From Stropharia rugosoannulata (lineage: Eukaryota; Basidiomycota; Agaricomycetes; Agaricales; Strophariaceae), in contig JANCIK010000004.1 in NCBI GenBank assembly GCA_028532985.1, forward strand, positions 3,100,001 through 3,164,000: 64,000 nt of DNA, given 5' to 3'. Every line of letters begins with the position of its first letter. The stretch's first letter is position 1. Shown piece by piece: positions 18,187 through 57,653 of the stretch. The notes below the pieces were generated by a model, which ran no database searches, was not told the DNA's origin, and saw only the letters and a list, made by a program, of their open reading frames with translations. The position numbers and the translations under genes were made by a program.

Positions 18187-18413
18187 TTAAACTCCAAAGT
18201 GAACGTAAGGAACCCAGGTTAACAATCCGCTCTCGGTATCCGCCACTTCCTCCCGGGTGCGCCTTATAGCATAATCAAGCGCGTAAGCGGCACCAGCTCC
18301 AGAAAGTCCCTTCAAACCCAACTTCACGCTGCTTTCGAAGAGGTATTGGTAAAATAACTTCGCTATTCCTGGTCCCTGAGAATCGCTGATAGACCACATT
18401 GTCGACACTATAC
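18187..18413 (-). pseudogene. 3' end of a split TPR-CHAT gene (C-terminus of CHAT domain)
   Basis: Orphan C-terminal CHAT fragment: IVSTMWSI, a helix-rich middle, then LLTWVPYVHFGV and a stop at 18187. This is the usual end of CHAT (caspase HetF associated with TPRs) domains. The open frame ends abruptly upstream at the terminal repeat at 18414. The missing upstream part lies 22.5 kb away at 40952, in the same orientation, and ends at AAGYRS. The AC at 18412-18413 is the target duplication. Joining the two flanks gives GYRS-IVSTMWSI with no missing or extra base, so this is the last exon segment of that gene. Confidence 0.9.
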
Positions 18414-18424
18414 CATCAGGAAAT
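18414..18424 (+). repeat. left terminal inverted repeat of the 22.5-kb element
   Basis: CATCAGGAAAT, perfect inverse of 40941-40951. It abuts the CHAT coding frame after the AC duplication at 18412-18413. Similarity to the right end stops after 11 bp. Confidence 0.9.
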
Positions 18425-20296
18425 TAAGAGGGTTCCAATCTGCTTATATGAGCACCAGAAATGCGCTGCAAATGAATGTCGGAGCTGTCGGAAAGTAAAC
18501 TTATTATGAGCGCTCTCGTAATGCTAGATATGCCTAGACAGCGCAAGGTTAGTTTAATAGTGGAGACGGTTATATAGCGACTTGATTGTACCTTGATGAC
18601 TTTGTGACAGATTGGACAAAGCTTATCTGGATGCTCGTAAATCTACCTCCTTGAGTTTCATCATTACATGCAGGATATACGCCGGTAGTAAATCAGTAAA
18701 TAGCAACAGTATCCAGGTCTCAACACAGGGCGAGACATACAGAGATGGCCGAAGGTCTTGTTGGTAATCTAGGCAAGACATTACGAGCTACTTGTCTAAC
18801 TTGGTGCGCTCCGAAGAGAATCCGTATAGTTACTGCCCCCCTACCTATGAAAAGCCTTCCGTTCACGCAGTCTCAACTAATTATGATATAGACTTTGTCC
18901 AATGCAGAGTGTGAGTTCCGGAGATCATGTTAAACAAACTACCGCATCTTGGAGGATGTTACAACAAGGATATAGCTGCAGCCGTGGCGTCAAATGTTTG
19001 CTCATGGGAAATCTTGAGACGCAATCTGCATGAGTTATTGATAATTTCTGAGTCTGTGCTATAGAGGGAGAGTCTACTTGTGGTATGTCTGTGAAACGAT
19101 GGTCATGGGATATGGGCCATTCAGTCAATGCAGCGTGCAGCGTCGCTTCTTCCACGAATCATAAAGCTCTACAACTAAATTTGGACATGAGGGATTTTTG
19201 AACCAATTGGATAATTCACTAGACTACGGCGCATACAAAGTTTACAGCTACTGATGAAAACATTTATTCTACAATAAGTTGACTTTAGGCAACAACCTTA
19301 TAGCAATCTCTACCCCTTCCCCCCTCACACAGCAGTGGTGTGTACTCATCGGAGGATGAGTAAAGACCAAAACATATAGCCCAAATGAAGCCAAAATTAA
19401 AACACCTTCGCAAGCAAACGACCTAAGGTAGCAGCGGTCAAGCAGCAGCTTGCTGGAGCACCGAGCACATAGAGTCAGTATGAGGCCAGACTAAGGGCGC
19501 CAATGCACACACCTAAGCTGAAAGTTGAGTTGGGAGCTCCTGAAGCTCCACAGCGCTGCTCAAAGTAATGCCGTGCATCAATAATGGGCCTTTCAATAAA
19601 AACGGAAAGCAGAACACACTTACTTAACCCTTACTACTCCATCGTAGCATCTGAGTCTAAGTCGACTCGTACTAAGATCCCTTTGTTAGCATGTACTGTG
19701 TGAGGGACTAAAAAATACCGACAGAGGTGTTGTGGAAGTGAGTTGCTGCATTGCACAAAGTGGAGGGGTAGAGAGACCATGAACCTACCTTCGACTTGGA
19801 CTGTTCTTTATATAGAGCAACGGGCATTTCCTACTCAATTGCATGGAGCCCACAAACTCAGCTCCAAGCTGCTCCACTCTTAGTGTGCCAAGAAAATGAA
19901 AAAAATTAAACAGCAACACTAGATTCAGTTCAGATTCAGCTGTGATTGACGCTGTACCAAGAAATTACATTTAAAGTGCTATATGGGAGAATCTACTAAT
20001 GCGGTAAAGGGCTGAAGGCCCCCATTTCAAGAAAAGCCTGCTGGATGGATTCTGGGTAGCTACGCTGGCGTGACGGCCTGGGCCCGAGACCCTCTTTGCG
20101 GTGCAATGAACAAGACAACCAGGATCAATGCTCAGAGCTTATTTCCTTCCGAAGGTTGGACACTGGTGTGTTTATTTTATTTTATCGGAGAATGAGGTGT
20201 GTACAATTATAATTCCAACTACTGTACTTGCGCCACCCAGAGCTGATGTTCTCCCTCCAGACATGTTACTACTGACGGCATGGCCTTTCCAATCCT
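18425..20296. other. left subterminal region of the element, no gene seen
   Basis: About 1.9 kb of AT-rich sequence with only short frames, such as 18925-19155 on the minus strand, that show no recognisable protein. It may hold transposase binding sites or decayed cargo. No clear repeat of the right subterminal sequence was found. Confidence 0.4.
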
Positions 20297-21054
20297 CTAA
20301 GCTTCTTTGGGCCAATGTTTGGAGGCGCAGCATTGAACAATGCGCTTGGTTGATAGGGCCTCAAGCTCGCTTTGTCCTGCTGGGAAATGGCGTATCTTGC
20401 AGGTTGTTGCTTCAAGCAGAACTGCACAGTGATGGACCAAGGGGTTGTTGATAACCAACTAGCATTGGTTTAATAAAGCACCTTTATCTCTGAATACTGG
20501 AATGCTTACCTTGGTGCCGATTCTGAAGTGCTCGAAACCAAACTCGTGCACGAAGGGCTCACGTACGTGAGCATCGAATTTGACAGTGCCGTCAGTGAGA
20601 GTAAGACTTGCTTCGTTGGGTAGCGGAGAGAAACCCTTCGTCTTGAAGGCCACTCGCATTACTTGGACAGTCAAGTCTCCGTTTGTCTCAAGTTGCCCAG
20701 TGTCTTGTGTCAACTTCCAGTCCAGCACACCGAGACCCTTTCCATGCTCTGTAGAATCGACAAGGTTTGATGCAAGAAATTCTTGCCTGCATGCATCAAG
20801 AAGCTTCTTAACGCTGATTTTGCCCCCCTTGCCTTCAATTGTCGACCTGGAGTGCTTCAAATACCAACAAAGGCAAGACTCTAGCCACTCCTAGGAGTGT
20901 CCTTACTTGTCAGCGTGCGGAGAAGCTGGGCAAAGCAGCTTACCTGGTCTACCGGAGGTTTCTGTGACATAGTGTGATGCGCATACCACTTCAGAATCTC
21001 CCAATCAAAGCTCTGGTTGTCTGCTGTTTCTATAGAAAAGAGCCGCACGTCCAT
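20297..21054 (-). CDS. uncharacterised 205-aa protein in the element
   Basis: Three exons, 20944-21054, 20510-20854 and 20297-20458, with clean GTAAGC donors and phase-0 junctions give 205 aa. I do not recognise the family. The N-terminus is mixed polar (MDVRLFSIETADN), the middle has a beta-rich texture (LTLTDGTVKFDAHV, then FGFEHFRIGTK) and the end is Cys/His-containing (LVHHCAVLLEATTCKIRHF, then IVQCCASKHW). There is no signal peptide or membrane span. It lies 0.5 kb from the Ty3 insertion on the left side of the Plavaka-type element and reads toward its left end. Because all three exons are in phase it is probably a real gene and not a chance frame, but further exons cannot be excluded. 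Confidence 0.6.
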
Positions 21055-21543
21055 TGTGCGCGCGGTGCTATTGTGAGTGAGGGTAGAAAGAAAGGGAGAT
21101 CCAACTTCTACCAGCTTCTGGGTTAATTAAGTGATGGCTTTCCGAATTTAGTTTCTGGTATGGAGACCTAGTGTGGAGAGCTCGCACTGTGGAGCTTGAA
21201 TATCTGTATCAGGACAGGTTGACGTCCAAATTAGTGTTAGCGCTCTGGCTCACTTGTGCAAATGCTGAAGGTGCCAGACCACCTTAGCCTTCTTCTATTT
21301 TGACCAGAATGTCAATCCCCTACGGTTCTTCCCCTCCACCTATACCAGAATCAAAAACTGGTAGCCCATACCTATTTTTCAGAGAGTATCGAGGACGCGC
21401 TTCATCTGAAGTTCCAGAGTCCGATGATATGATGATGAACTGGACAGGCAAAGGATTGAAATCGAACAACAGAAGCTCAAACTGGAAGCGCAAAGATGGC
21501 AATTAGAAAAGCAAAGGGAGAATTCTTACTTGGAATGCAAGGC

Positions 21544-22006
21544 TGTAAGGGGACGCTGTGCGTCACCCTTTATTTTTATTCATTTCGTCTTCCTTCACTT
21601 TCTTTTATTTTATTTTATTTTTATTTCTTACGCCGCGCGCAGCCCGTGCAGTGTACACTATGCTCTGCAGTGTGTACTGTGCACAGGCGCGCGCGGTTTA
21701 CATCATGTGACGTACTGATGGGACACGTCCATCATGTGTTGTGCATATGATGTATGATGCACATCACATGAGGACGTGATGTGGTGGCTTCTTGTGGCGG
21801 ATCAACTGTATAGTTTATTCTCACGCATCAATCAACGCTTCTATTATGTACTGTGGCGCCCAGCAGCGGGTTTCCTTAGGCTTTTGTCTTCGGAATCCCT
21901 CTGCTAGGTGCGCTTCTATTGTATTTATAGTTTACAGCTTAATAAACTTCGGAATCCCTCTGCTAGGTCTCGTGTGAGCTCGACACTGCGCAGAGTCGCC
22001 CTTACA
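21544..22006 (+). repeat. 5' LTR of the Ty3 element
   Basis: 463 bp, TGTAAGGG...CCCTTACA. It contains two copies of a 22-bp direct repeat (CTTCGGAATCCCTCTGCTAG-type) about 57 bp apart near 21888 and 21948 with AATAAA between them, the likely polyadenylation region. AGGCTTTTGT at 21878-21887 is complementary to the candidate primer-binding site. Confidence 0.95.
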
Positions 22007-22008
22007 GT

Positions 22009-22018
22009 ACAAAAGCCT
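22009..22018 (+). promoter_or_regulatory. candidate self-primed primer-binding site
   Basis: ACAAAAGCCT starts two bases after the LTR, where a primer-binding site belongs. It is not an obvious initiator-tRNA complement but is a perfect 10-nt complement of 21878-21887 inside the LTR. Tf1/sushi-group elements prime from the folded 5' end of their own RNA in this way. Confidence 0.6.
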
Positions 22019-22090
22019 CTGCCTGGGACCAGTTTTGGACGCCTACTGCCTTCGGAAACGGCCTAGGACTCCAACACCCCTCCTGCTTCG

Positions 22091-23303
22091 ATGTCGATGG
22101 ATACAGACGCCTCTGCGAGCCCTGAGGCGGGAAATACCTTGTCCAGACCCGCCCTCACCCTCACGTCGCTTCTGGAGTACGTCGACCACAATAACGCGAT
22201 TTTTCGGAAGGAATTGGCCGACGTTTGAGCTCCCTTCACACTATCCGCACCCTCCTCGAGACTACACTTGCCAGCTCGCATTCTGCACCTGCACCCGCCC
22301 CTCCTGCGCCTCGTGATCCCCTCCTCATCTCGACGCCCACACGGCTCCTGCAGCTGCAGTTTCCCACTGTCTCTCGCCTCAAACCTGCGTCTCCCAAACC
22401 ATTTGATGGTTCACGCGAAAAAGGGCGCTCTTTTCTTAATTCTTGCACCATTTATTTCGCCTGGCTGGCTCGCAGTTTCCTGACGAATTCTCTCGAGTTC
22501 TTTGGGCCCTTTCTTTCATGAACGAGGGCCGCGCCGCCCAGTTCTCGAAACGCGCCATGATGTCTGGATTTTCCGACTTCAATCTGCGTAGCTGGGACGC
22601 CTTTGAAGCCGTGTTCATTCGCGATTTTTGCGAGCAGCACGAGGCCGAGCACGCTCAGCTCGCCCTCGAGAGCACCTCCTACCATCAAGGCCGCCGCTCT
22701 GCTGAAGAATACGTCGACGCCTTCAAGGACCTTGTCCTCAAGTCTGGGTACATTGACGAGAAGGCGTTGATTATGAAGTTCCGTCGTGGTCTATCCCCTT
22801 CGCTGGACAGTCAAGTCGCCAACCTGCCCTCGGAGAGTCGACCCGCCTCGCTTCAGGGATGGTATGAACGCGCCGTGGAGGTTGCTCGCAACCGCGAGAC
22901 CAACCAGCTCTTCCGTGCAGCACACCCTACGCCTTCTGGTCCCCCCGCGGCTTCGCGTTCATCCGCCTCCCCTGCAACCGTTCCACGTGCTTCTCTGCCC
23001 ATTATTCCTGCCCCTCGCGCGCCTGCTGCCCCTGCTCTTCCTCTGGGCGCTCCCATGGACATTGATCGTGCTCGTAGTGCTGGGAAGACACCCCCTACCT
23101 GCTATCGCTGTGGTAAACCTGGTCACATCTCTCGAGATTGTCCCCGGGCTTTCGACATTCGCCACATGACTCTCACGGAGCTTCAGGAGCAACTCGAGCA
23201 CATGCGCGCTGCGGAGGGCCAGGAGGATGCTATTCCGCCGGTGGATGAAAGGAAGGAGGATGATGTCCAGGAGGAGGAGGATTTTGTGCATCGCGACGAG
23301 TGA
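22091..23303 (+). pseudogene. gag: gag of the Ty3 element
   Basis: Structural polyprotein of the virus-like particle. ATG 22091 opens a frame beginning MSMDTDASASPEAG, interrupted near 22223 and 22453 by one-base breaks before the long capsid frame. The capsid part has the retrotransposon-gag texture (ALSFMNEGRAAQFS, FEAVFIRDFCEQHEA). The nucleocapsid knuckle CYRCGKPGHISRDCP (CX2CX4HX4C) is at about 23100-23144. The frame stops at 23303 and overlaps the start of the pol frame by a few bases, which is in the -1 frame relative to gag. As written it could not make full-length Gag. Confidence 0.9.
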
Positions 23304-26300
23304 GCGGCGTGCCCTCGTTCGCGCGTGGCAGTCGTTATAGTGTACTGTCGGTAGAGCCCTGCGAATCTATTTCTGTTCCAGACCTACCTTCACGACTGCC
23401 TGACACGCCTAAATCCCCTGCTCCCAAGTCTCACTCCATTGCTGCGTTACGCATCCAGGCCCGTGCTCGCCGCTGGGAGCGCGCACTTCCCTCTCATTAC
23501 ACCATTGCCGCTACTCCGAGTCCCAACTCCCTTCACCTTCCAGTGGAGATCGAGACCACGGACACGGGCCAGCGTTTTCGCCTCAGGCCCCTGGTTGACT
23601 GCGGCGCTGACCAGTGCTTCATCAGTCGCAAATCGTCCAGCAGCACAAGCTGACGGAACGCCCTCTCTTGGTCCCCATTCCAGTCCACAACGTTGACGGT
23701 TCACTCAATGAAGACGGCTCTATCACGTCCATTGTGGAGCTCATCCTTCGCTACAAGGACCACACTGAACGCGCCGTCTTCCCCGTCACCAACCTCGGAC
23801 GTCAGGATATGATTCTGGGCCACACTTGGCTTCGAGAACACAACCCTGAAGTGGACTGGATCACTGGAGAGGTGAAGATGTCACGGTGCCCACGCCGGTG
23901 CTCCACGTGCCGTGATGAGATCCGTGCGGAGAAGTCTAAGCTTCGCGCAGAGATCAGAGCGGTAGAGACCTGTACCCAGGGCCCTATGCCCCTCCTTATG
24001 GAGCTGGAGGACGATGACGACGAAGTCCCCGAGATGGAGTTGGAGGAAGTTGAACCGCTGCCTGCTCCTAAGGACGCTTGCAGCTTACTAGAGGCCCTCC
24101 ACTCTGTCTGGGAGGACGACGACAACCGGCTGTTTGCGGCGTCGTTACCCCCCGAGTCCCAGTTCATTCAGTCTACCTCCACCGTGTCCCAGCGGCTCGC
24201 AGAAGCCTTTGCGTCCAACTCTGGACAGAAGGACTTCCGCGACGACGTTCCTAACCATTTGCATGACTTCAAGGACGTCTTCTCAAAGGAGTCCTTTGAT
24301 GTCTTGCCAGAATGTCGACCTTGGGATCACGCCATTGAACTGGAACTCGGAGCAACACCCAGCAACTGCAAGGTGTATCCTATGACGCTTCCTGAGCAGA
24401 AGGAACTAGATGCGTTCTTACAGGAGAACCTCGCCACTGGCCGTATTCGTCCCTCTAAGTCTCCGATGGCGTCTCCTGTCTTCTTTATCAAGAAGAAGGA
24501 CGGGTCATTGCGCCTCATCCAGGACTACCGTGTGCTGAACGCCATGACCATCAAGAACCGCTACCCGCTTCCTCTCGTCTCTGACCTCATCCAACAACTC
24601 CGTGGTGCCAGCTACTTCACCAAGCTTGACGTGCGGTGGGGGTACAACAATGTGCGCATCAAGGAGGGAGATGAGTGGAAGGCAGCGTTCCGAACAAACC
24701 GCGGTCTGTTCGAGCCTACGGTTATGTTCTTTGGTCTCACCAACTCGCCTGCAACGTTCCAGACCATGATGAACGAGATATTCAACGACCTCATTTTCGA
24801 GGGCATTGTCTGTGTCTACCTTGACGATATCCTCATCTACACCAAGACCCTCGAGGAACATCGTCGGGTGACATGTCTGGTCATGGAGCGTCTGCGACTC
24901 CACCGGTTGTATCTCAAGCCGGAGAAGTGCGAGTTTGAGAAGCGTCGCATTGAGTATCTGGGGCTCATCATCTCGGAAGGTCAGGTGGAGATGGACCGGT
25001 CAAGATTGCAGGTGTAGCAGAGTGGCGGTTCCCAAGTCACGCAAGGAGGTACAGAGCTTCTTGGGCTTCGTCAACTTCTATCGCCGCTTCATCGAGGACT
25101 TCTCTCACCATGCCCGTCCGCTTTTTGAGCTGACGCGTAAGGATACTCCTGGTCGTGGTCCTCTGATGCTCAGGCCGCCTTTGATATGTTGCGTACTGCG
25201 GTGACTTCGCTCCCATCCTGGCTTTCCTCGTGACGACCTGCCCTACCGCGTTGAGGCAGACTCCTCGGACTTTGCTACTGGTGCTGTGCTCTCTCAGCAG
25301 TCGCGTGAAGATGGGAAATGGCACCCTGTCGCCTATTACTCCAAGAGCCTCAGTCCCGTCCAGCGTAACTACGAGATCCATGACAAGGAGATGCTAGCGG
25401 TCATTCGAGCCCTGGAGGAGTGGAGACACTTCCTTGAAGGTGCAGCTCATCCGGTGGAGATCTGGACAGACCACAAGAATCTGGAGTACTTCATGACGGC
25501 CAAAAAGCTTAACCGCAGACAGGCCCGCTGGTCCTCTACCTCTCCCGCTTCGACTTCACGCTCCGCCACCGCCCTGGCCGTTCCATGGGGAAACCTGATG
25601 CCCTCTCGCGACGAGCTGATCATGGAGACGGCGCTGGGGATAATGCTGAGATGACACTCCTCAAGCCCGCCTTCTTTGCTATCCGGGCGCTCGAGGCGGT
25701 GGAGCTGGTGGGCGAGGAGAAGGACTTGTTGCACGAGATCCGGAAGGGAAACCGTCAGGGAAACATGAGGAGATGGTGGCGAAGGCAGCAAAGGGTTTGT
25801 TGAGCAGTGGGGCCCGTTCTGTGCGATCCTCGGAGTGGAGGATGCAAGATGGTCTCCTCAGCTTCCGGGATAAGATCTACGCCCCAACGACCCTGATCTC
25901 CGCCGCCGTATTGTCTCCTTACACCACGACACCAAGGTGGCTGGTCATGCTGGACGTTGGAAGACACTGGAGTTAGTATCGCGCAACTACTGGTGGCCCC
26001 AGATGTCTCGGTACATTGGACAGTACTGCAAGACCTGTGACCTCTGTATTCGCACCAAGATCCAGCGTCACCGCCCGGTTGGTGAGCTTCATCCTCTCCC
26101 TATCCCTGAGCAGCGCTGGGCGGTTATCAGTGTGGACTTCATCGTGGAACTCCTCTCTCCAATGGACATGACGCCATCATGAACGTGATAGACTCAGTCT
26201 CCAAGCGCGGTCACTTTATCCCAACGACTACCACTGTTAGTGCACTTGGAGCGGCCCGGCTCTATCTCCGTTATGTCTGGCGCCACCATGGTCTCCCTCG

Positions 26301-27273
26301 GATAGTCCTCTCGGATCGTGGGCCTCAGTTCATTGCCGAGTTCACTAGAGAGCTTTACCGGTTGTTGGGAATCCGCCTGGCGACGTCCACTGCCTACCAC
26401 CCCCAATCTGATGGTCAGACGGAGCGCGTTAACATGGAGTTGGAACAGTACTTGCGGACCTTCGTGAATGAGCGTCAGGACGACTGGGAGGATCTCTTGC
26501 CTCTGGCCGAGTTCCAGTACAACAACCATGTCCACGCCTCCACCCAGCATACACCTTTCATGCTCGACACTGGACGACACCCTCGGATGGGCTTTGAACC
26601 TCATGAAGCTCCATCGTCTCTGGAGACTGTGAATGAGTTCAAGGAGCGGATGGCTAGTACATTGGAAGAAGCCAAGTCAGCGCTGGCTAAGGCCAAAGAT
26701 GACATGGCTCGCTTCTACAACCGGCGACGTGACCCTCTCCCGGTGTACAAACCAGGTGACAAGGTCTACCTGGATGCGTCAGACATCCGTACCTCCCGTC
26801 CCTCCAAGAAGTTGTCCCACCGTCTCCTGGGCCCGTATACGGTCGAGGCTGCTGTTGGATCTCATGCCTACCGTCTCAAACTCCCAGTTTCTCTCAAGCG
26901 TCTCCACCCTGTCTTCCCTGTTGTCAAGCTCACGCCCTGTCTCCCTGACCCTATTCCGGGCCGCATTGCAGCGCCTCCTCCGGAACCTGAGCTGGTGGAT
27001 AACGAGCTGGAGTACGAGGTTGAGGCCATCCTCAACAGCCGCATCCATCGAAACAGGCTTCAGTTCCTCGTCAAATGGAAGGGGTATGGGTATGAGGAGA
27101 ACTCCTGGGAGCATGCGGAAGACGTCTTCTCACCTCAGCTGGTGGCCAAGTTCTACCGGGAACATCCTGATGCTCCGCGGGTTATTGGCTCCCTGGCAAT
27201 TGAGCCTGGACGGTATAGAACAGTCAATGGTGGCGAGTGGATCACCTTGCCACGCCGGGACGCCGTGTCTTGA
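23300..27273 (+). pseudogene. pol: pol of the Ty3 element (PR-RT-RH-IN-chromodomain)
   Basis: Protease with DCGADQCFIS in place of the common D-S/T-G-A and MILGHTWL later; reverse transcriptase with KLDVRWGYNN and the catalytic YLDDILIYT; RNase H with [17 protein letters not shown]; integrase with an HHCC zinc region (HDTKVAGHAG, CKTCDLCIRTK), the core Asp of DRGPQF and STAYHPQSDGQTERVN; then a chromodomain (YEVEAILNSRIHRNRLQFLV, WKGYGYEENSWEH) at about 27011-27120. Frame breaks occur near 23634, 25006, 25155, 25205, 25535, 25760, 25880 and 26150, each about one base, at short homopolymer runs. The final frame stops at 27273 just before the polypurine tract. Confidence 0.92.
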
Positions 27274-27281
27274 AGGGGGGG
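27272..27281 (+). promoter_or_regulatory. polypurine tract of the Ty3 element
   Basis: GAAGGGGGGG lies 3 bp before the 3' LTR, the expected primer site for plus-strand DNA synthesis. Confidence 0.8.
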
Positions 27282-27284
27282 TGA

Positions 27285-27747
27285 TGTAAGGGGACGCTGT
27301 GCGTCACCCTTTATTTTTATTCATTTCGTCTTCCTTCACTTTCTTTTATTTTATTTTATTTTTATTTCTTACGCCGCGCGCAGCCCGTGCAGTGTACACT
27401 ATGCTCTGCAGTGTGTACTGTGCACAGGCGCGCGCGGTTTACATCATGTGACGTACTGATGGGACACGTCCATCATGTGTTGTGCATATGATGTATGATG
27501 CACATCACATGAGGACGTGATGTGGTGGCTTCTTGTGGCGGATCAACTGTATAGTTTATTCTCACGCATCAATCAACGCTTCTATTATGTACTGTGGCGC
27601 CCAGCAGCGGGTTTCCTTAGGCTTTTGTCTTCGGAATCCCTCTGCTAGGTGCGCTTCTATTGTATTTATAGTTTACAGCTTAATAAACTTCGGAATCCCT
27701 CTGCTAGGTCTCGTGTGAGCTCGACACTGCGCAGAGTCGCCCTTACA
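27285..27747 (+). repeat. 3' LTR of the Ty3 element
   Basis: 463 bp; no difference from the 5' LTR was found by eye. It is followed by the AAGGC duplication at 27748-27752. Confidence 0.95.
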
Positions 27748-27799
27748 AAGGCCTCCATTCGCCACCTTGTCCGATTGCGCAAGCGTAAGGGTATGTTGT

Positions 27800-29342
27800 T
27801 TACCTACATGAGGAAGGATGAGCTCCTTTGAATGACGCTGCAAATACTATTGGTAGAAACCATGCATTGCTGTAATTGATACATTGTTGTATTTGATATA
27901 TTGAATGCGCAGACACAATGTCTCTCCTCGGTGCCCTCAAGACCGCTTTCATGCTCTGCGGCGCGTCTCCGTCCGTATTCGCTTTTGTGTGGGTGTGAGT
28001 GTGCGAGGGAACATCAGCAGGAGCGGAAGTGGGCGTGCTCAACGGCGTGCTTGAGGGCGGATCCGCCACGCCGGCAGGCGGGAATGTTATACTCCTTGGT
28101 GTCGGTGTCGGTGCGCTCTCAGTGCTCTCGCTCTCGCTCGCCAAGGCGCCATGTTCAGTCGTACCGGTGCCAAGCTCGGCTCCAATGCTAGCGTCCACAG
28201 GAATGGGCGGATCCAAAGACAACGCATCCAAAGACGACGAAGACGACGAAGACGCAGACACAGACACAGGCGCTGGCGCGCCAGATCTATACGAAGCAAC
28301 GGGTTAGCACGTCGTGTAGAAGATATATAGAAAAAAGAGGCGACGTACCCCGATACAGACGTGTTGGACTCGGGCTCGGACTTGGGACAACGCAGATACG
28401 CGCACAGTGTCCAACACAGATGCGGACGCAGGGCCTGACACGGAGTTATTGACCGCTACGGCGGACCCTGACATGCTGGACAGTAGGACGGACGCGGGCA
28501 CAAACGCCACAGACGCAGAGGCAGACAGGAGTCTTGCCCACCCTCTCCGTCTCCAGGTTGCATCCCGTCCTCGCCTTGGCGTACTTCACGTCCACCTGCT
28601 CCACTCTCTCGCTCGCTCGCACCCTCGCCCTCACCTACATCCTGTTCGCCTTTGCGTACTTCGTGCTCGCCCTCGCCGAGTTGTTAATATCAAGCTCGTC
28701 GATTCTATGGCGGAGGGCAGCGTCAGCCGTGCGCGGGGCCTTGCTCGCCTCGGAGTGGGACTGGTGGTTCATGAGGATGGCGCGGAGCAGCACGGCGCTG
28801 AGGAACAGCGAGGACGTCTATGCGCGGGGTAGCGTTAGTTGTTAGCAGCTTAGGGGTGGGAGAGAAAAAAGAACAAACGGACCTGATCGTCCTTCTCTGC
28901 GAGCAGCCACTCCTCGAGCTCCTTGTAGAGCGCCGAGACCTCTTCTACGGAGCACTTTTTGGCGGCGATGCGCGAGACCTTGTCTTCGAGACAGCGGACT
29001 TCGGGGCGCGTTCGTGCGGGTACGGGAGCCTGGAGGTTGGGAATAGGGAAGGGGCCGCTGGAGAAATGCAGGGGCGGGGTCTGCGAGGGGGACTGAAGCC
29101 TGTGTACGTGCGGCGGAGGAAGGGGGAAAGTCAAGGCGGACGGGGCGGAGACCGTCACGGGCAAATGCATCGCGGCAGAATGGGCAGGCGGGAGCGAGGC
29201 GTGCGGGGGTCTTCTCGACTATAGTGTGTGCGCAGGGTGCGCAGAGGACGTGACCGCAGGGGATGGAGTGGGGGAGGTGGGCGGGGGCGTACTCCTCCGC
29301 GCAGGCTTCGCAACCTGCGGACCCGGGCGTCAGTGTCAGCAT
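27800..29342 (-). CDS. RING-finger protein (C3HC4 type), passenger gene
   Basis: Probable E3 ubiquitin ligase. ATG at 29340-29342 starts MLTLTPGSAG, followed by a RING: CEAC, IPCGHVLCAPC and CPFCRDAF, the C3HC4 ligand spacing. A second conserved block, CLEDKVSRIAAKKCSVEEV, lies about 100 aa later but in a different frame; no intron of compatible phase was found, so a frame break near 29100 is likely. An intron (GTCCGT...CATAG, from 28882) then leads to SLFLSAVLLRAILMNHQSHS. The minus-strand continuation to 27800 is Ser/Pro-rich and of uncertain extent. GC content and codon use are higher than in the flanking element genes. It lies inside the 22.5-kb element, right of the Ty3 insertion. Confidence 0.6.
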
Positions 29343-32776: not shown

Positions 32777-33520
32777 GCATGCCAGCGCCTGAGGGGAAGA
32801 ATAGTAGGTAGTAGGAGCAGGCTGGTGGAACTGAAGGATGAAAAAAGTCAAGGGTGTTTATATAACAGGCTCCGCCGCGGTGCTGAAGGGTGCTGACAAG
32901 TCTTGCTAGTTTAAAAATAGTTTCTGGTCAAGGGTAATAGATAGTAGTATCCATCATACTCCATAGCCTAGCTTGCAGACTTATCGATCCACTGGCACTT
33001 CTGTGCTCCTCATGGGATGTTGTTTTTCTTTTTTTGTAGCACATACATACTAATCACTTCACTTAAGCCACTACCGCTGCAACGCAGCCGAGTACAGTCG
33101 CCACCACATGAGCAGTGGGGCTGCACAGAAGTACTTCGAATGGATAAGGTGCTAATTTGCCTCTGTTGCATAATTATAATTGAACTAGTGTTGGTGGAGT
33201 TGCATGATGGCGCTGAATAAATGGTAAATCCCCACCAGGTACCGAGTCCCAGGAGTCTGGGACTTGGATGAGATATAAACCCACTGATCTTCATTGGGAT
33301 TTAGAAGGTCATTTTCCATGAAGTCCCAGGGCTGCTCCACCTCTAACCCCTCTCCTTGGGAAATTGAGAAGTTCAAGCACAAGGACGGCAACATATCTGA
33401 CTTTCCATCAATCCAAGAATGCAGCAGCCCATCCAGATCACTCAGTCCGTCTGATATGCCAGGTATTTCCCACTGCAGTATTTCCATTTTGTTATTCGAA
33501 ACTAATGCGCACATCAACAT
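32777..33520. other. intergenic within the element
   Basis: Promoter side of the PD-(D/E)XK-like gene. A minus-strand open frame at 33185-33544 overlaps the small plus-strand frame to the right; which of the two, if either, is real is not decided by the sequence. Confidence 0.4.
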
Positions 33521-33908
33521 GACCCCAGACTCAGAGTTGGGCAAGGTAGAGACTTCTAGGGCTCAGCATCGGGCGCCCGGGCTTGGCCATGCCAATCTTT
33601 CAAACAATTTAGCAGTGAGATATAGAATGTTATCAAACCAACTCACCTGTGCTAACTTCCTGCTCCATACGAAGGCGCAGAAGCCATTGCTAGGAAAGAG
33701 AAGCAGGCTTGAAACAAATCAAGAAGCTAGTAACAAGCCCCATTTCCAGAAGAAAAGACGCACAGCAGCTTCCACCACAGTGGATTCCAAGTTGACTAGG
33801 CTCAAAACAGAAGTAGATAACATTAGCAGGGAGATTAAGGAGATCATGCGACTCCTGAAACATGTTGACCAAAAATTAGCCCTTGTCGTTCAGGAGCAAG
33901 ATATGTAG
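33521..33908 (+). CDS. small basic coiled-coil ORF in the element
   Basis: ATG 33521 opens a frame of about 129 aa with a basic middle (GKRSRLE, KKRRTAAS), which could be a nuclear localisation signal, and a heptad-like C-terminus (LTRLKTEVDNISREIKEIM, then LLKHVDQKLALV) typical of a dimerising coiled coil. The frame is also open upstream to 33294. No family was recognised. It sits between the PD-(D/E)XK-like and DUF6698 genes and runs toward the latter's 3' end. Codon texture in the C-terminal half is convincing, the N-terminal half is not, and an intron around 33645-33660 is possible. Confidence 0.35.
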
Positions 33909-34119
33909 TAGTAGTCTTACATTTGCATTTTCCACATCAGAATACATTTTGCCGTTTTTTTTCTGAGTATGCGCTCACAGAATGAGTCGAGATGGAGTAT
34001 TAATATCAAATATTTATATTATCATTTAAGAAAGAAGGTTGAACATTGAGTAGTAGCTTCGTAAGTACTAAAGGGAGGACTACATTCTGTGTGTGAACTC
34101 TTCCTAGTCAGGTAGAAAC

Positions 34120-35801
34120 TCAGGAAAACGTCCCGAGCCCTTGCAATTCAAGAGCCACTTGCTGCTGCTGCTCAGATTCAAGAGCTGCTCGCTGCCGTCT
34201 GAGGGCCTTGCACGATGCTGAAGTGTTTGCTTGATGGTGAACTGCTGCCTCAGGAAACACTTGTCTATCAGATGTAAATGTAATTAGGATTAATCAGCAA
34301 AGGGACTGAAGTACGCACCTTGACCACCATGCCAGTAGTTCTTTAGTGCGCAACTTTGTAACCGGACCAGGTGTATCTTCAAAAAAATCAATGATATAGT
34401 TATACAAGCCTTGGTAGTCAAACCCTCCGTAGAAGGCCGCCCAGGAAGGAGCTGTCTGTAAGTTAAAATGCAACTGGAAGATGGGGGTAACAGATATCAT
34501 AAAGGTGTATGCAGGAGCATTTGGGGCAGGATACTCACCTGAACAGCAGCATAGGCTATGGATCTCGGCGTGACCTTATTATTCAAATGCACCTTGGAAG
34601 CCACATTGCGATGCAGCGCTTTTTTGCCCTTGCCAGACATGGTTTTCTGCCGTCTGGCTGGAGGCACATTTTCCTCCTCTTCTCTATCATCTGGACAGTC
34701 TCTCGCAGAAGAGGGTGAGGTGAATATCGCCTTGAATACCTGTGCATTGATAAGTATAAGTAGACCACAGGTGACCAAAGAAACAAACCTGAACAAGTAA
34801 AGGGCTTTTCAAGAAGCCCAACTCTAGTTGTGTAGTATCCGCGCTGTACTTGGAGTAAAAGCATCTGGAGTGATAACTAGATAGCCAGTCGAACTCTTCA
34901 TCACCTGCACGTAGTTTAGCGCGAGTTCTATGAAGCTACATGTTAGACTATTGGGATACATGGCTAAATGACAAGCTTACATTAAATTATCCCAATTGAA
35001 TTCTACGGGGCATAATAGTCGTCCAGTGACATCATGCTCGATCCCCCTGTTCTCGCGACAGCTGGAATTTAATAGCACTTCTGGCCTTGGATTCATGGCG
35101 TTCAACCAATCTGCAATGCAAGCTCGGATTCTATTCAAGTCATCACTTCGTGCACTGTCCGCACCGTGCTGCAGCTATAGTAAGCATGAGTTAATGTGGT
35201 TATGTATGTAAGGAGCATAGGAATTTTTACTTCTGAGTAAAACACACTGAGTTCCTCAGGAGACCCCTCGTCGATCTTCTTCTGAAAGTTGGGAATCAAA
35301 CTCTTGAGTATTAAGAGAGCACCGTGGCTACGCTCCCAGCTGATAATGCACATTAGCTTCCTAAATAAATAATGACAAATACAGGCGTCCCACCTGCGCT
35401 TGAGATCATAACCCTCTTCATCATCAAGTTCTTCAAGCTCATTGAGCAAGTCTGGGTCGTCAGGATCCTCCAGGTAGGCAGAGTATTTGTCAGACTCAGA
35501 GACTATCCCTTTAATTTCTCCACACAGGAAGACAACTTTGCGAACACCTCGACCAAGTTGGCTAGTTGTAGTTGTGTTTCTAAAAGTAGCAACCAGATTA
35601 GTGAGTGGGTTCGAAGTAGCAGCTATCGACTAACCCTTGTTTTCTTTTAGATTTTTTCTCAACATTGACTGTTTCTTGAAGAGCATAAAATCTTCTCTTC
35701 CAAACAGCGCTTGGATCGGACTGGTCCCGAGCATCATCGTTGCGGGTAGAATCGTTGTTGGACTCGGAAGGGATTGCCGTACTAGATGGTTGGCCGGACA
35801 T
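34120..35801 (-). CDS. DUF6698 family protein, passenger gene
   Basis: Member of a basidiomycete family of unknown function (DUF6698), recognised by block order: RKVVFLCGEIKGIVSESDKY, then SHGALLILKSLIPNF, HGADSARSDDLNRIRACI, HDVTGRLLCPVEFNWDN, AQVFKAIFTSPSSA, LNNKVTPRSIAYAAVQ and ELLAWWSR. ATG at 35799-35801. At least five short introns (for example GTTAGTC...TTTTAG, GTGGGAC...TTTAG) are needed, and each tested junction keeps the frame. The last exon carries a Gln/Ala-rich tail and stops at 34120-34122. It lies tail to tail with the small + ORF and head to head with the transposase gene, about 295 bp apart, so the two may share a promoter region. Confidence 0.85.
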
Positions 35802-36095
35802 GACCAGAAGAGGGCTGCTGTAGAGAATAATTGGGTATGGTCAGTCGTTTCTCAGTTTCTATTTCTTATAGGCAGCGTCAACTGACAAGCTCCACTGCGC
35901 TATAGAAACTAGTCCCCTTTAATGTGGTGTTAGTGGAGCAGCGTTTCAGGAGGCGTCTGTTTTCTTTTGATAGATATTGCAGTGTCCTCAGTGTCCTAGT
36001 ACTGCGACTATTCACCAATATCATTCACTTGCATGGCTGCACAATTTCACAGGGCATTTTTAATCTTTTCACTGCTTATCTGTCTTGCATTCTTT
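35802..36095. promoter_or_regulatory. divergent promoter region, DUF6698 and transposase
   Basis: The 294 bp between two divergent starts must hold both promoters. Upstream codons in the transposase frame begin near 36033, but ATG 36096, directly before the zinc-finger Cys, is the better start. Confidence 0.5.
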
Positions 36096-39000
36096 ATGTT
36101 TCCTTGCAAACATTGTCCCGACAACTTCAATGCACTTTCTGCGAAGGGCCTTAAGCTGCACCAAAAGAAATGCGAGGGCTACAAGAAATATGAAGTTGCC
36201 ACAAACGATCTCCGGAAATCAACTGCTGCTTCAAGGAAGAAGAAACAAACTGACCTTAAGGAGTGCAAGAAGCGCATGGAATACAGGCCTGGGGCTTTGA
36301 AAGTGCGCATTACTTAGTCTACATCTTACTGATGTCGCTTTACATTACGTCTATTAGGATCCTCCTGATGACTTAGGACGCCTTGTTGCAATGGATGAAG
36401 CTCCAGACACTCCTACAACTCCTCCGCCTCAGACTTCCTTTTTTGAAGGGCAAGAACATACTGCCACACCTCCTTTACCTTTACCGCCTTCAGCACTTTC
36501 CCCAATTAGGAGCCCACAATTAACAAAAGCTGGTAGACCTAAAAGGAACTACCGCCTACCTGCTAGATATGAAGATATCAGTCCTCAGATAGTGCAACCA
36601 GCGCAGTCTCATGAAGAACCCCAACCCACATCAATACTACCCCGTTTGCATCTCATTGTTCGAAATCAATACCGGACAATGACTGACTTATTTGGTTTAC
36701 TCCGTGAATATCTCTACAGGCCCTCCTTTGATCCGGAGTCAACCATTCCTAAAGACGAGCTTTACCAGGCTGGGGGGCCAATCTCACAACCTTCCTTCAA
36801 CGAGCCGCAAGCTACTGCTGTTCATCGAAACAGAACCATAGAGTTGCTCATGAATTGGAAGGACTCCGGTGCAGTCACCAAATCCGACGGCGAAATCAAC
36901 CGACTTGTGAAAGAAGTCATTCTTGACCCAGATTTCAATGTACAGGAGTTGCAGGGATTTAGTTCAGCAAGGGAGAATATAAGGAGCAACAAAGCTGAGA
37001 AGAACTCTCCATTTTTTGATTCCTTTAAGAACAGTCACGTTGATATTCAAGTTCCCTCAGGTGTAAAGGGAGAACCCCCCGCCACATTCTCAGTTCCAGG
37101 TTTACTGCACCGAAAGCTGACGGCTGTTATTCAAGCAGCATTCGCGTCCCCTCTGGCTCAACACTTTCATCTTACCCCCTTCAAACTTCTCCATGCATCT
37201 CCGAACGGTTCGCAGCAGCGTGTGTTCTCAGAGGTCTACAACTCCGATGTCTACATTGAAGAACATGACAAGATCCAGCAAGCTCCTCTTCCTCCAGATG
37301 AGCCAGACTGCAAGAGAGAAAAGGTTGTATTCGGGCTTATGGTCTGGTCTGACAGCACTCATCTCACAAACTTCGGCACCGCTAAATTGTGGCCCATCTA
37401 TTGCTTCTTCTCATCCCTCTCTAAGTACATCCGAAACAGGCCAAACTCGGGGGCTTGTCAACACATTGCATACATTCCGACTCTTTCCGACTCTTTTGAA
37501 GACTTCGCTTCCTCTTTTTGTAGAAAATGGAGCACACAGAAGAGAGATATTCTGGCCCATTGTCATCGCAAACTGGTTCATGGAGTTTGGAGAATTCTTC
37601 TCGATGAGGATTTTGTTGGTGCCTATAAATATGGTATGGTAATTAGATGCATGGATGGGATTGAACGCAGAGTGTATCCAAGGATCTTTACCTACTCAGC
37701 AGACTATCCAGAAAAGTAAGCCGCATCTATGCTCATTTTTAGCTTCTGATTTATGTTAATTGACTTTGCGAAAGGGTTCTACTGGCCACAATAAGAGACA
37801 AGGGTCTTTGTCCTTGTCCTCGATGCCTCGTTCCGAAATCAAGACTGGACCAGACCGGCACTCAGCGAGATAGCAAGTTTCGACTTAAACACTTTCGTAC
37901 ATTCCTATATAGCTCAGTCCAAGCTGCAAGGAATGCAATCTACAAACTGGCAGTGCCTATAAGTGGCGTTGCTGTCAACCGTCTTCTCAAAGAAACATCT
38001 TCTGTGCCTACTGTGGTAAGTTATGTGCATTCTTTACACTTCTGTTAACTCCATTCGTCTACTTTACTCCTAGAACGCTTTTGTAGATAGACTTGGCCCA
38101 GGCTTTAGCATCAAGCGCATGTTGGTGGTAGATCTGTTGCATGAATTTGAATTAGGGGTCTGGAAAGCCCTCTTTACTCATCTGATCAGAGTGTTATATG
38201 CTGCTTCAACTAATGGTGCTCTAGTTACTGAGCTCAATCTCCGGTTAGCCCAGATTCTACTATAACAGCCTTGTTACTGACAGGAGCTAATATCCTCTAT
38301 AGCTTCAGAAATATACTGTCCTTTGGCCCAAGCACAATCAGACGCTTCTCAACAAATGTTTCAGAAATGAAGAAGTTGGCTGCTCGTGATTTCGAAGACA
38401 TACTTCAGGTATGACCTCCTTTATAAACTTCACGGAGAACTCACTTAATTGTATGTCTTCGCATACAGTGTAGCATCCCTGTATTTGAAGGATTACTGCC
38501 TGAGCCTTGCAATGCAATGGTCCTGAAGTTGCTGTTCAGGACAGCCGAGTGGCACGCCTTCGCTAAACTCAGGCTTCACACTGACGGCACTCTTTCTCGC
38601 CTTGAAGATCTAACTAAGGAGTTTGGGAAACTCTTGCGGGAGTTTAGAAGCACAACAGCGTCCTGCTTTGAGACCTATGAACTTCCTAGGGAGGCAGCCG
38701 CAAGAGCAAGGCGCCAAACATGTGTCAAAGGAAAAGCCAAGGCGACCAACTCTGCTGAATCTTCCAGCAGGAAGCATAAGGAGCTGAATTTGTCTACTTA
38801 CAAATTCCATGCTCTTGGGGACTATGTCCAGACCATTCGTCTTTTTGGGGGAACAGATGGATTCTCAACTCAGGTGGTTAGTGCCATCCCCTCACTTCTC
38901 ATTTTTCCTTCTATTTTACTCAAACTTGCATCATTTAGGGCGAACTTGCTCACAAAACAGTTAAACGTCTATATGGAGCTACCAATAAACGCAATGCTGA

Positions 39001-40418
39001 GCAACAGATTGCGAAACGGGTACGAAGGCTGGAGCGTGCCAATCTGGCGTTTGCCAAGAAACACCAAAAGCAAGATCGTGCGCGCCCCAGAACAGAAAGG
39101 CAAAGAATGGATCTAGAGTCAGCTGAGGGCGATTCTGACCTACGGTACTACATCTCCCCTTCGAAAAGCAGCCCAAAGAATATCTTCAGCATGATGCATA
39201 CCAACAGAGGCGATCCTGCATATCATGTAAGTGTTACACTCCAGAATCCCGAATTGTCCAGACCGCTTATATGCACTTTTCTCTACTATTAGAACTTCCT
39301 ACCTAAACTTCAAGACCATTTGCTAGGACGGCTTACAGGCAGGGAATTTGATGCCGACATGCATGAAGATTTTACAGACTCTGATTGGAATTCGATCCGC
39401 TTTGTTGGAGCCAAGATCTACTCCGTTCAAACATGCTCAGTCTATTATACAAGCTACGACTTGCAGAGGCAATGCGATACAATCAATCCTTCCTCCCATC
39501 CTGACATCATGCTAAGGTCGCCTATCAAGGAAGATGGCGCAGAGCCATATTGGTACGCTAGAGTCATTGACATATGCCATGCTAATGTCTGGGCTGAGAA
39601 CAAAGCGATTCCGGGAGGCAGAAATCCAAAGAGAATGGATTTTCTCTTTGTTCGATGGCTTGGAGAAGAGCCTGAGTATACATCAGGATTCAAAAGCGCG
39701 CGCCTTCCAAAGATTGGCTTTGTTGAATCAAGTGATGACTTCGCATTCAGTTTTGTTGACCCAGCAAACGTCATTCGAGGGTGCCACTTAATACCGGCAT
39801 TCAACAATGGCAGAACTTCAACACTTCTTCCGTGGCCTCATAGTGTCGCTCGCTGCTTAAATTCAGAAGAGGTGGATGACTGGATGAATTTCTACGTAAA
39901 CATGTGAGTAATTTACCCAAAGATGTTCTGAGCTGAGCCAACAGAAATCCAGTTTTGTAGATCGAGATATGCTTATGCGCTATTATGGTGGTGGAGTTGG
40001 TCATGTAAACAACTCACCGCCGCAACAAACTACAGCAACAGACCCTCAAGATGAACATGACAATGGTAGCGTTACTGAAGATGGCCCAGGAGCATTAGAT
40101 GAGCCTGATGACTTGGAGCCTGATGACGAGAACGAAGCTGCTGCAGCAAGTCATGGCCTGACTTACCAGGATGCCTGCACTGGTCCCGGCATCCCACTGG
40201 AAGACACATCTGACTTGGAGTGCGACGACATAGAATCCCAGGAAGGAGATGATGACATAGAGGATGACTCTCAGGGCATAAGGTTGACGTTCAGTGATGG
40301 TGAAGCTGACAGTGATGAGAACTTGGATATGATGGAATTGGATAGTGTTGGTGACAGTGGAAGTACTAGCGGAGGTTCTGATGCTGAGGACAGCTCGGAC
40401 GGTTATGCTTCACTGTAG
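36096..40418 (+). CDS. Plavaka-family DNA transposase
   Basis: Nine exons (36096-36302, 36358-37715, 37775-38015, 38074-38243, 38303-38408, 38469-38873, 38939-39226, 39293-39903, 39953-40418) give 1283 aa with every phase closing. An N-terminal zinc finger (CKHCPDNFNALSAKGL, HQKKC) precedes the family hallmark GRPKRNYRLPARYED and a LFGLLREYLYRPSF block. The catalytic region has VFGLMVWSDSTHLTNFG, YPRIFTYSADYPEK, CPCPRCL and DLLHEFELGVWKALFTHLIR; the two Asp-bearing blocks and HEFELG are the likely catalytic D-D-E region (inferred). The C-terminus reads NIFVDRDMLMRYYGGGVGH, then a long acidic tail. There is no stop or frame break in 3.85 kb of coding sequence, so the gene looks functional. It lies 0.5 kb from the right terminal repeat. 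Confidence 0.93.
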
Positions 40419-40940
40419 TACTTACTTGTACATGAGAACGTGACCGTGACAGTGCCGCAGTACCCCGGTGTTACCTTAGTACTAAGTAGAGCTCTGAGTC
40501 AGATAACTTAAATACTATCCAGATACTATGTAAACCTTATGTTGCCAACTTTATAGAGAATGGTATTGAAGCATCAAAATGCTAGCGCTATACTGTAGCA
40601 TTAAAGATTTCTAATATTTTGGTTAGCCGTTTCATAAGGACAAACGAGGAACTTGACTGATTTGTGACCAATCGCTAACCAATTGTAGATGCACTGACTT
40701 ATTAAATAAACGCTACTGATATGCTATGAACTAGTCACAAGCTTACCATAACATTGGGGAACATTCTGACTAGTCAACCGTATTTTGAATATCTCACCGG
40801 AAAGGTATAATGTCATATCATGTCCCTGAAAGCTATACCAAAACGGAAATAGGTATATGACAGCTTATGTGACATTATTTAGGGCGCACAATATTGCCAA
40901 AGTATCATCGATGTCATATTGCTAAATCTGAAAAACTACT
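40419..40940. other. right subterminal region of the element
   Basis: About 520 bp, AT-rich, without a gene, between the transposase stop and the right terminal repeat. It presumably holds the transcription terminator and transposase binding sites. Several TATAGC- and TGACAT-like short motifs recur, but no clean array is seen. Confidence 0.45.
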
Positions 40941-40951
40941 ATTTCCTGATG
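40941..40951 (-). repeat. right terminal inverted repeat of the 22.5-kb element
   Basis: ATTTCCTGATG, the perfect inverse of 18414-18424; followed by the AC duplication (40952-40953) and the CHAT codons for GYRS. Confidence 0.9.
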
Positions 40952-42961
40952 ACTTCGATACCCAGCAGCTAACATCCCGCCAGCAAGGTGTACGGCCTCT
41001 TCAGAAAGTTTCTCGTCACCAGTGCTAGTTTGGCACGCAGAAAGGAAAGCAAAGTCAGCATATGGAATGTTCAGCTTGATGACGTTCCCAAGCTCGAGAC
41101 GGCCATTATAAAGATGAAACCTGCTTTGGAGCGGCGTGCTTGTATCTTGAACAGCATGACAAGCTACGTGAATCCAGGGATACTGCTCAATCTCCTTTGT
41201 CACAGCATCAACTGTCGCTTGGCTTTTATCGAGATGCATGTAAGAGAAATTTTCTTCACTTTTCAGACTTTCGATGAGAGAAAATACCTCCTGTTGAGTA
41301 CCTGGGATTGGTGCAAAATTTGGTGTATCTGGTTGGCTGATTAAGAGGAATCTGTCGGAGGGTGGTCTTGGGCGATGAATGTTATCGACCAAGTAACTGA
41401 TAGTGGGTATGTATGAAGACACTGCGAAATATGGGAGAGAAGTTATTTTCTTCGCGCCTTCCCCGTATATACCGGCAGCATGAAGAGGGAGGAAAGCCAG
41501 TGGTCCAGTCAAACACCACCAGATACGTGTCCTATTTGTGAGCTGACAGTACACATCAGCTTCATAATTATCCTAAGTATCTCTGTTAACCTACCGGCTG
41601 TATTGTGTGGATATGCGCTGTTATTCGCAGCGCAACACATCTCCAGAGCTCGCTTAGGACATTTCGAATAGAACTTATGTCGCTCCCTTCAGCATTCAAC
41701 CTGAATGTGCCCCTCTGCATGACACCATTCTGCTTCAATGATAAAATTAGTTCCCCCCGCAGAGCTTCGGCTTTTGCATAGGAGAAATCCGGAAGTGGCA
41801 CATGTAGAGGGTCGCCGGAGGAATGTAGGATAAGAGCGTCACATCGACGTTCGTGAATGTTAACCAAAACCACATAACCATATTTCGGCAAGTACTTCAG
41901 TATATCGTGCGCTTTTCGAGGTTGCAGAAAATCTTTGAATTCAGGTATTTCCCGTATTTGTGTGATCAGACTTTCCCATTCTTGCGCCAGCTTGATGTGC
42001 TCGCTGCTTTGCTTCTCCATTGCAATATTCGTTTCTAATATGCCGGCTTCTAAGATATTCACCCTAACGGCGTTATCCTCCGTGGTAGAACCTAAGTGTT
42101 CCAGAGCTTGTGATACTGCTGTCAGACAAGTTGCAAGTGCAGCATTCCGGGCATATAATTTATCCATTGGAGTGCGGAGCTGATTAAGTTGGTTCCATAC
42201 CAGACAGCGACCTTGCTCCAGCCATTCGAGAGCTGAAATGTAGTCCTTCCTTGAAAATGCTACAGCTGCGGCCTCCCTTGTTAGAGATGAGATATTCAAG
42301 AGACTGGTGTGATGCTGTGCCATAGTCTGGTCTAGTCCTGCTACCCGGGAAATAAGATTTACTACAATGCCATATGCATGTAAACTCTCCTCGGCGCCTG
42401 CCAACCTGGACACATCAGAAAATCCTGATTTTGCTATGGCACTATGTAGAGGGGGGGATTTGCTATGGCACTATAAGCTGCTATGGGCTACTATAAGGTG
42501 CTATACAGATGCCCTATAGCAAGCCATAGCAGCTTATAGCATCATAGCAAATCCCCCCCCTTGCATAGTGCCATAGCAAAATCAGGATTTACTGATGCAG
42601 TCTCGCCCAAATTTCCGCCGAAGCTAGTCGTTCGGCAGGTGAGTCAGAAATAACAGCGGAAGAGCTCTGATACTGGGCCAGTACTAGCTGCATATCAGAA
42701 TCGTCTTTTGTATGGTCGTAACGGCATAGATATGCCTTCCCTAAGTTACTCAGCCATTGGCACCGGTCAGCATGGCCTTCTGGAACAAGTTGTACTGTTC
42801 GCTCATGGCATTCGATGGCTTTCTTCAGGTCATCCTCCTTTTTAGTGTGCTCAAATAGACGGGAGTATGCGTTTCCAAGCCCATTGAGCCATGCAGCAAG
42901 GTCACCAGAATGATTATGGGGTGTGAGCATGACACAGCCTTTTCTGCATTAGAAACCGCTT
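40952..42961 (-). pseudogene. middle part of the split TPR-CHAT gene (TPRs and most of CHAT)
   Basis: CHAT domains are caspase/separase-fold peptidases; TPR-CHAT proteins act in induced proteolysis and cell death in bacteria and are abundant, mostly unstudied, in Agaricomycetes. This part reads EAVSNAEKAV at its 5' end, TPRs with LNGLGNAYSRLFEHT and LSNLGKAYLCRYDHT, a helical linker (ALEWLEQGRCLVWNQLNQLR), then the CHAT body: a catalytic His in WIHVACHAVQ and a catalytic Cys in AFLSACQTSTGD, ending LAGGMLAAGYRS at the element boundary. The last 11 codons of the open frame before its stop (HQEIVVFQI) are element sequence. Frame changes occur near 42936 and across the hairpin at 42420-42590 (possibly an intron). 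Both catalytic residues are present. Confidence 0.88.
42420..42590. repeat. 171-bp near-perfect hairpin within the TPR-CHAT gene
   Basis: Palindrome with ends AAATCCTGATTTTGCTATGG and its inverse, arms of about 70-80 bp with a GGGGGGG/CCCCCCCC tract and TATAGC-type core. On the coding strand a GTAAAT donor overlaps its 5' end and a CCAG acceptor lies just past its 3' end; splicing them keeps the protein frame (LHQ joined to LAGAEES). It may be a miniature element that brought in or occupies an intron. Confidence 0.8.
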
Positions 42962-43038
42962 CAAGGATCACATAAAACAGTCCCCTGGTACCGTACACTA
43001 TAGTGTAACCGGGGACTATATATATACTATATGACATA

Positions 43039-57422: not shown

Positions 57423-57653
57423 TACGCAAATAGCGCAACATTTGTTGTTTCTTCTCCTGTTGACCTTTGAAATTGGCTATAACAGGTATGATGGCACGAA
57501 AACGGGATTCAGCATAGGCTATGATTTCCTGCAAGTATCGGTGTTGAGGGTGCTCGGTCAGAGACTGCTCGGTCGCTGGGTTGTAAATATGAACGACTTC
57601 GGCCATTGTGCTGAGAGGGGGAAGTGATGGTAACAGGATAAGAAAGATAGCGA

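Follow-up and report, generated by a model that had tools for sequence, protein, structure and literature searches.

We analysed a window of 64,000 nucleotides of Stropharia rugosoannulata DNA (C4:3100001-3164000, in an assembly of 47.97 Mb and 20 contigs), in which a minus-strand TPR-CHAT gene is interrupted by a 22,538-bp element that carries a transposase of the Plavaka kind (hereafter the window element). Positions without a contig prefix are those of the window. The insertion is defined by the following features:

18190-18411, minus strand: downstream part of the interrupted CHAT gene, from IVSTMWSIS... to its stop codon
18412-18413: target-site duplication AC, left copy
18414-18424, plus strand: left terminal inverted repeat, CATCAGGAAAT
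18414-40951: whole element, 22,538 bp, with 11-bp inverted ends and a 2-bp duplication
40941-40951, minus strand: right terminal inverted repeat, CATCAGGAAAT
40952-40953: target-site duplication AC, right copy
40954-42470, minus strand: upstream half of the interrupted TPR-CHAT gene (open segments closest to the element)
42413-42597: second CATCAG insertion in the same gene, a 185-bp miniature inverted-repeat transposable element (MITE) whose arms measure 86 bp, flanked by duplicated CA

In-silico removal of the 22,538 bp together with one AC yields a single open minus-strand frame (...EEAVHLAGGMLAAGYRS|IVSTMWSISDSQGPGIAKLFYQYL), in which ...GYRS runs directly onto IVSTMWSIS..., and the reconstructed empty site reads ...CGAAGTATAGTG.... 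The joined flanks code for one CHAT domain (Pfam PF12770, E-value 6.5e-31, residues 11-278, that is 268 residues, with the junction covered). Both halves match the genome at 99%, one on each side of the element; they account for two of the 18 CHAT matches listed for the genome, and 11 others are paralogues whose alignments run through the junction (query 1-258 or 1-259, 42-55% identity), ten of them free of stops. Since these paralogues span the junction, the 22.5 kb between the halves is something other than a normal intergenic region, which a preliminary description of this locus had itself named as a possible objection. The insertion, its exact ends, the AC duplication and the splitting of one TPR-CHAT gene, all put forward in that description, are borne out; what it called an excision product stands as a reconstruction of the empty site, not as excision, of which none was seen, and no empty allele of this insertion was found in the assembly. 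Removal of the 185-bp MITE likewise gives one open TPR-CHAT frame, so that the same gene has been struck twice by CATCAG-ended elements. The CHAT family is sizeable in this genome, and six of its 18 listed matches lie on C12:2.30-2.67 Mb.

The identity of the inverted ends is perfect over 11 bp and stops there. Taken alone, inverted copies of 11 bp flanked by a 2-bp direct repeat are poor evidence of an element: the window contains 46 such pairs spaced 5-60 kb apart, some of them from real repeats, and 20 mononucleotide shuffles of it contain 13-43 each. Pairs beginning with CATCA number one of the 46 in the window as against none in the 20 shuffles. What carries weight is the transposase inside, the CATCA sequence of the ends and their exact position at the interruption of the reading frame; the boundary is firm because the CHAT frame breaks precisely where the two ends lie. 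Genome-wide, CATCAGGAAAT occurs 61 times compared with 17 for its reversed control, an excess that we discarded as unusable because three of six other inspected sites belong to one unrelated dispersed repeat. Two further pairs of CATCAGGAAAT were rejected, one at C5:90273/111682, which is flanked by ag and tt and lacks a duplication, and one at C1:4932546/4981502, with both sites inside another dispersed repeat.

Gene content and type of the element

The window element contains the following genes and insertions:

20462-20890, minus strand: exon of a gene termed OB-like, with a weak RMI1 N-terminal match
21544-27747, plus strand: nested Gypsy-type long terminal repeat (LTR) retrotransposon with a chromodomain, identical 463-bp LTRs and an AAGGC duplication
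28845-29492, minus strand: open frame that weakly resembles a RING finger at 29172-29312, with a score under the Pfam cut-offs
30904-32538, minus strand: candidate for private cargo with several open frames, resembling PD-(D/E)XK on visual inspection only
34312-35165, minus strand: Pfam-matched part of a DUF6698 gene (by eye about 34270-35700)
36000-40415, plus strand: Plavaka transposase gene, about seven open segments, neighbouring pairs joinable by candidate GT-AG introns

The transposase lies near one end, as previously described, in open-framed segments that match PF18759 with 77-81 bits (80.6 over 37075-37722; cut-off 26.3). Its gene structure is a candidate model, and its N-terminus begins, by eye, with a C2H2-like finger. 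The DUF6698 gene consists of open exons with introns placed by eye. The gene at about 31-32.5 kb has no Pfam match and no homologue at an E-value of 0.001 or better; distant paralogues occur at three other genomic loci only, none of them within 30 kb of a listed transposase, and it looks like private cargo. The 6.2-kb Gypsy element is a recent arrival, as its LTRs are identical and flanked by AAGGC duplications. Because it is nested inside, the window element was originally about 16.3 kb long: without the retrotransposon and its 5-bp duplication it measures 16,329 bp, in agreement with the roughly 16 kb proposed before.

Six-frame Pfam scans covered 18414-21544 and 27600-40920, and the LTR element was scanned in four open frames. 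Neither these six-frame scans nor those four frames gave a match to a TET/JBP dioxygenase, nor was a tyrosine recombinase of the Starship captain type matched in the same scans, the Plavaka transposase being present instead; tRNA and Rfam scans returned no matches.

PlavakaB DNA transposons, which occur in Agaricomycotina, are defined by CATCA..TGATG termini and a 2-3 bp duplication, according to the available passages of Kojima 2025 (PMC12730594). The window element has a Plavaka transposase domain (PF18759), 5'-CATCA..TGATG-3' termini and an AC duplication whose empty site is backed by the CHAT frame. By domain, termini and duplication it is thus predicted to be a giant PlavakaB-type DNA transposon, within the CMC/CACTA-like DDE family.

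Related elements in the same genome

Searches with the transposase exon recovered 97 genomic matches, which we merged by hand into 53 loci; the closest relative shares 47% identity along most of this exon. Several of these loci lie in elements whose ends could be placed. One family of about 20 kb, starting with CATCAGCAAAAGG and ending in ...TTTTTTCTGATG, is found at the unrelated sites C12:79090-99045 (19,956 bp, duplication TA) and C5:749964-770847 (20,884 bp, duplication TT), copies that are mostly 97-99% identical over their full length, and a third copy on C1 shows 99.9% identity across the 8.5 kb compared. A large gene of this family is complete only within it, and lies in pieces in the C5 copy. 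A second family, with termini CATCGGATAG...ACTGATG and weak inverted repeats, occupies C6:1234820-1271274 (36,455 bp) and C8:1788048-1824729 (36,682 bp), with AT duplicated at both; comparison of the end pieces of the two copies gave 93-98% identity. A compact family lies on C7 (7.6 kb) and C3, with the duplications GT and GC, and its C3 copy (L046) contains a nested 1.25-kb CATCAG MITE (C3:4057304-4058551, CA duplication). Relatives of 7.6, 20 and 36.5 kb therefore exist as units, each at two unrelated sites.

At C11:2784770-2819276 (L058, L059), a 34,507-bp CATCAG element with the ends CATCAGTAAATCCGG/CATCAGCAAATCTGG and a TT duplication splits a second CHAT paralogue, at a point eleven codons from the insertion in the window; its joined flanks, ...DEVVHLAAGMLASGYRGVVGTMWSISD, are in frame and give a clean empty site. 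A Plavaka match of another clade lies within this insert at C11:2788065-2789069, and is either its own transposase or a nested one. In total, 2-bp duplications were seen at ten insertions of elements and MITEs. The exceptional size claimed for the window element does not hold, given the CATC-ended elements of 20, 34.5 and 36.5 kb in the same genome. As a separate observation, two CHAT genes have taken three insertions between them, a possible sign of a target preference or of genes that the host can do without.

Conserved partner genes of the transposase clade

The genome search for DUF6698 gave 184 matches, of which 67 were taken, omitting further exons of the same genes, and merged by hand into at least 65 loci; the neighbour counts for both Plavaka sets rest on the matches listed. 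Counted in this way, 45 of the 53 transposases of the clade of the window element have a DUF6698 neighbour no more than 30 kb away, as against a mean of 5.2 and a maximum of 14 in 2000 random placements, which took C9 and C10 as 3.3 Mb each. In each of the 45 cases the nearest DUF6698 gene is oriented away from the transposase (38 upstream on the opposite strand, seven downstream on the same strand), at distances under 2 kb in ten, the window included, and from 5 to 26 kb in 35. At 72 other Plavaka loci, likewise merged by hand and used as a control, DUF6698 is found within 30 kb at five (random mean 5.4). A DUF6698 gene at C10:2364783 and eleven further loci, which have no transposase of this clade within 30 kb, are possibly remnants, longer elements or domesticated copies.

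The OB-like exon has 40 matches at 28 loci. Of these loci, 27 have a transposase within 30 kb (random 2.9), 21 of them within 5 kb, and the 28th is 1.3 kb from a DUF6698 gene. The 20-kb family codes for a protein resembling the KOW domains of Spt5, and 14 of the 16 strong matches to its gene are within 5 kb of a transposase (random 0.25; one weak match was excluded). The linkage of the DUF6698, OB-like and KOW genes, set against the private genes, points to a conserved module plus element-specific cargo. DUF6698 and the OB-like gene are thus conserved partners of this transposase clade and not random passengers; of the "passenger genes" described earlier, the term appears to fit the one at 31-32.5 kb.

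"OB-like" is a working name, as no homologue was found in the protein collection searched, a profile search of PDB gave no usable relative (two designed helical proteins, E-value 0.019), and the RMI1 match is seen in one of 13 members. A DUF6698 profile gave six PDB matches with E-values of 0.13-0.9 (augmin, keratins, a ribosomal protein and MPP1), none of them usable. Of its protein relatives 315 were found and 120 listed; those named among the listed matches come from what we take to be mushroom-forming fungi.

We then compared these partners with a transposase tree of 30 of the 53 loci, whose rows include near-identical copies that favour clustering. It contains a 14-row clade with the KOW gene in 13 rows (support 90/94) and a 15-row clade with the OB-like gene in 13 rows (support 100/99), the OB-like label of two rows, the window and L031, being taken from genes 15 and 38 kb away. 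Three changes suffice to explain the KOW and OB-like labels, compared with 12.2 when labels are shuffled. Hence, the OB-like gene, or the KOW gene in the sister clade, tracks the transposase tree. The window transposase stands alone on a long branch, and its placement is unsure.

Other features of the window

The window also holds a palindromic element at 47054-48789 with 704-nt arms that are 99% complementary, a related end of which is seen at 42968-43038; a 698-aa minus-strand open frame at 55380-57476 with 54-bp tandem repeats (56062-56439); and a diverged direct repeat of about 0.8 kb at 45207-45993 and 57683-58393, spaced 12.4 kb apart.

Probable origin and proposed function of the module

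We consider it highly probable that the window element is a giant transposon of the PlavakaB type which inserted into a TPR-CHAT gene and belongs to a clade with a gene module and cargo. Its history would be a single insertion that duplicated two bases, with the Gypsy retrotransposon arriving later. The transposase would cut at CATCA/TGATG and paste the unit into a 2-bp target, judging from what is known of CMC/CACTA elements and from the accessible part of PMC12730594. Members of the clade would mostly carry the transposase, an outward-pointing DUF6698 gene, the OB-like gene (KOW in the sister clade) and cargo of their own. As the partners are co-inherited with the transposase, they probably serve the element and not the host, and may aid transposition, repair or escape from silencing; conceivable steps are end binding, gap repair if the OB-like fold is real, and, for the KOW protein, transcription or silencing. 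The insertion with its ends and duplication, the multi-gene module and its tie to the transposase tree, and the recurrence of the 7.6-, 20- and 36.5-kb relatives as units are observed directly. With more reserve, we lean towards a distinct mushroom lineage of giant DDE elements, combining Plavaka transposase, DUF6698 and OB-like/KOW genes, that moves units of 7-37 kb with cargo.

Several points weigh against this picture. The PF18759 match covers only positions 37-231 of 325. Eight of the 53 transposases have no DUF6698 gene within 30 kb among the matches listed, and at least 12 DUF6698 loci have no transposase of the clade within 30 kb. The gene order of the window element is unlike that of most relatives, with DUF6698 adjoining the transposase and the OB-like gene at the far end. 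PDB profile searches found no solved-structure relative of DUF6698 or the OB-like protein. The terminal inverted repeat is only 11 bp long, and the search for further copies that had been proposed for this locus, run at the DNA level with the left 2 kb and the right 0.5 kb, found only the window itself; as no second copy was found by the element's ends, the boundary is set by the CHAT test alone.

The alternative that survives best is that a compact Plavaka element of 7-8 kb, with a transposase and DUF6698, owes its growth solely to insertions nested in it and to captured host DNA, and that its additional genes are of no consequence to it. The compact 7.6-kb family does have both genes, the Gypsy element is nested in the window element, and no relative of the 31-32.5 kb gene comes closer than 30 kb to a listed Plavaka. 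However, every one of the 28 OB-like loci is near a clade transposase or a DUF6698 gene, the OB-like gene follows the tree, and the 20-kb family recurs whole at two sites, as does the 36.5-kb family by its ends and length, which makes such piecemeal growth an unlikely account. Far less probable is that DUF6698 and the transposase only seem linked because they lie in transposon-rich regions, where everything is close to everything else. Random placement does ignore the clustering of transposons, the lengths of C9 and C10 were assumed, and the counts come from listed matches and hand-merged loci; but the other Plavaka loci are no richer in DUF6698 neighbours than chance (5 at 72 loci versus 5.4, among the matches listed) and the orientation is uniform in 45 of 45, so that this explanation is largely refuted. 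An assembly error joining the CHAT halves to the 22.5 kb, with which the lack of an empty allele would agree, deserves almost no credence in view of the exact inverted repeats and AC copies that stand on either side precisely where the frame is interrupted, and of the like structure, with different ends and duplication, at the second CHAT gene.

These observations suggest that DDE elements in mushrooms can move multi-gene units of 20-36 kb, which bears on genome shuffling and perhaps on gene exchange. For DUF6698, a family whose name conveys no function, its linkage to one transposase clade, always in the same orientation, offers a testable role, and gene annotation may well count such transposon genes as host genes.

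Comparison with known systems

PlavakaB elements, as presented in the passages available from Kojima 2025 (PMC12730594), resemble the window element in their Plavaka transposase, CATCA..TGATG ends and 2-bp duplication. They differ in that TET/JBP is reported there as the extra gene, for which the domain scans of the window element gave no match, and the DUF6698, OB-like and KOW partners go unmentioned for PlavakaB in the main text of that paper, as far as it was available. In the ichthyosporean Amoebidium, Plavaka-flanked giant repeats are reported to reach up to 50 kb and to contain tandem repetitive, intron-poor genes, many of which are tyrosine recombinases (PMC11244446, available in part); unlike these, the window element and its relatives have partner genes with introns, and their ends and empty sites are defined. 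Neither "terminal inverted" nor "target site" appears in that paper's main text. Starships, which are driven by a recombinase, have been reported in the basidiomycete Tremella in the part of PMC13066641 at hand. In light of the Amoebidium repeats (PMC11244446) and the Tremella Starships (PMC13066641), both from partial sources, the statement of the preliminary description that no counterpart was known is too strong. The finding itself is real; it is stronger than was claimed in being a conserved multi-gene giant lineage, and weaker since counterparts exist.

A Marasmius oreades transposon library holds elements of up to about 42 kb, whose type the passage at hand does not give. We found no description of a module of Plavaka, DUF6698 and OB-like/KOW genes in the open-licence literature, part of which was available as passages, and no paper on DUF6698 in the open-licence literature searched. 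The plant CACTA/EnSpm elements, whose transposases belong to a related superfamily, combine a transposase with an accessory protein, and this second protein binds the element ends. The likeness of the accessory proteins of the window element to those of plants is one of gene set. The Plavaka kind itself is known; what appears to be new, judging from the literature searched, is the module lineage of giant Plavaka elements.

Starships, the tyrosine-recombinase giants of Pezizomycotina, are like the window element in forming a large unit with the mobilizing enzyme near one end and cargo. The window element, by contrast, has a DDE transposase, a 2-bp duplication and terminal inverted repeats, and no tyrosine recombinase was matched in the domain scans. 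If the proposed mushroom lineage is real, it would be a cut-and-paste counterpart of the Starships, and the orphan family DUF6698 would be explained as a transposon gene.

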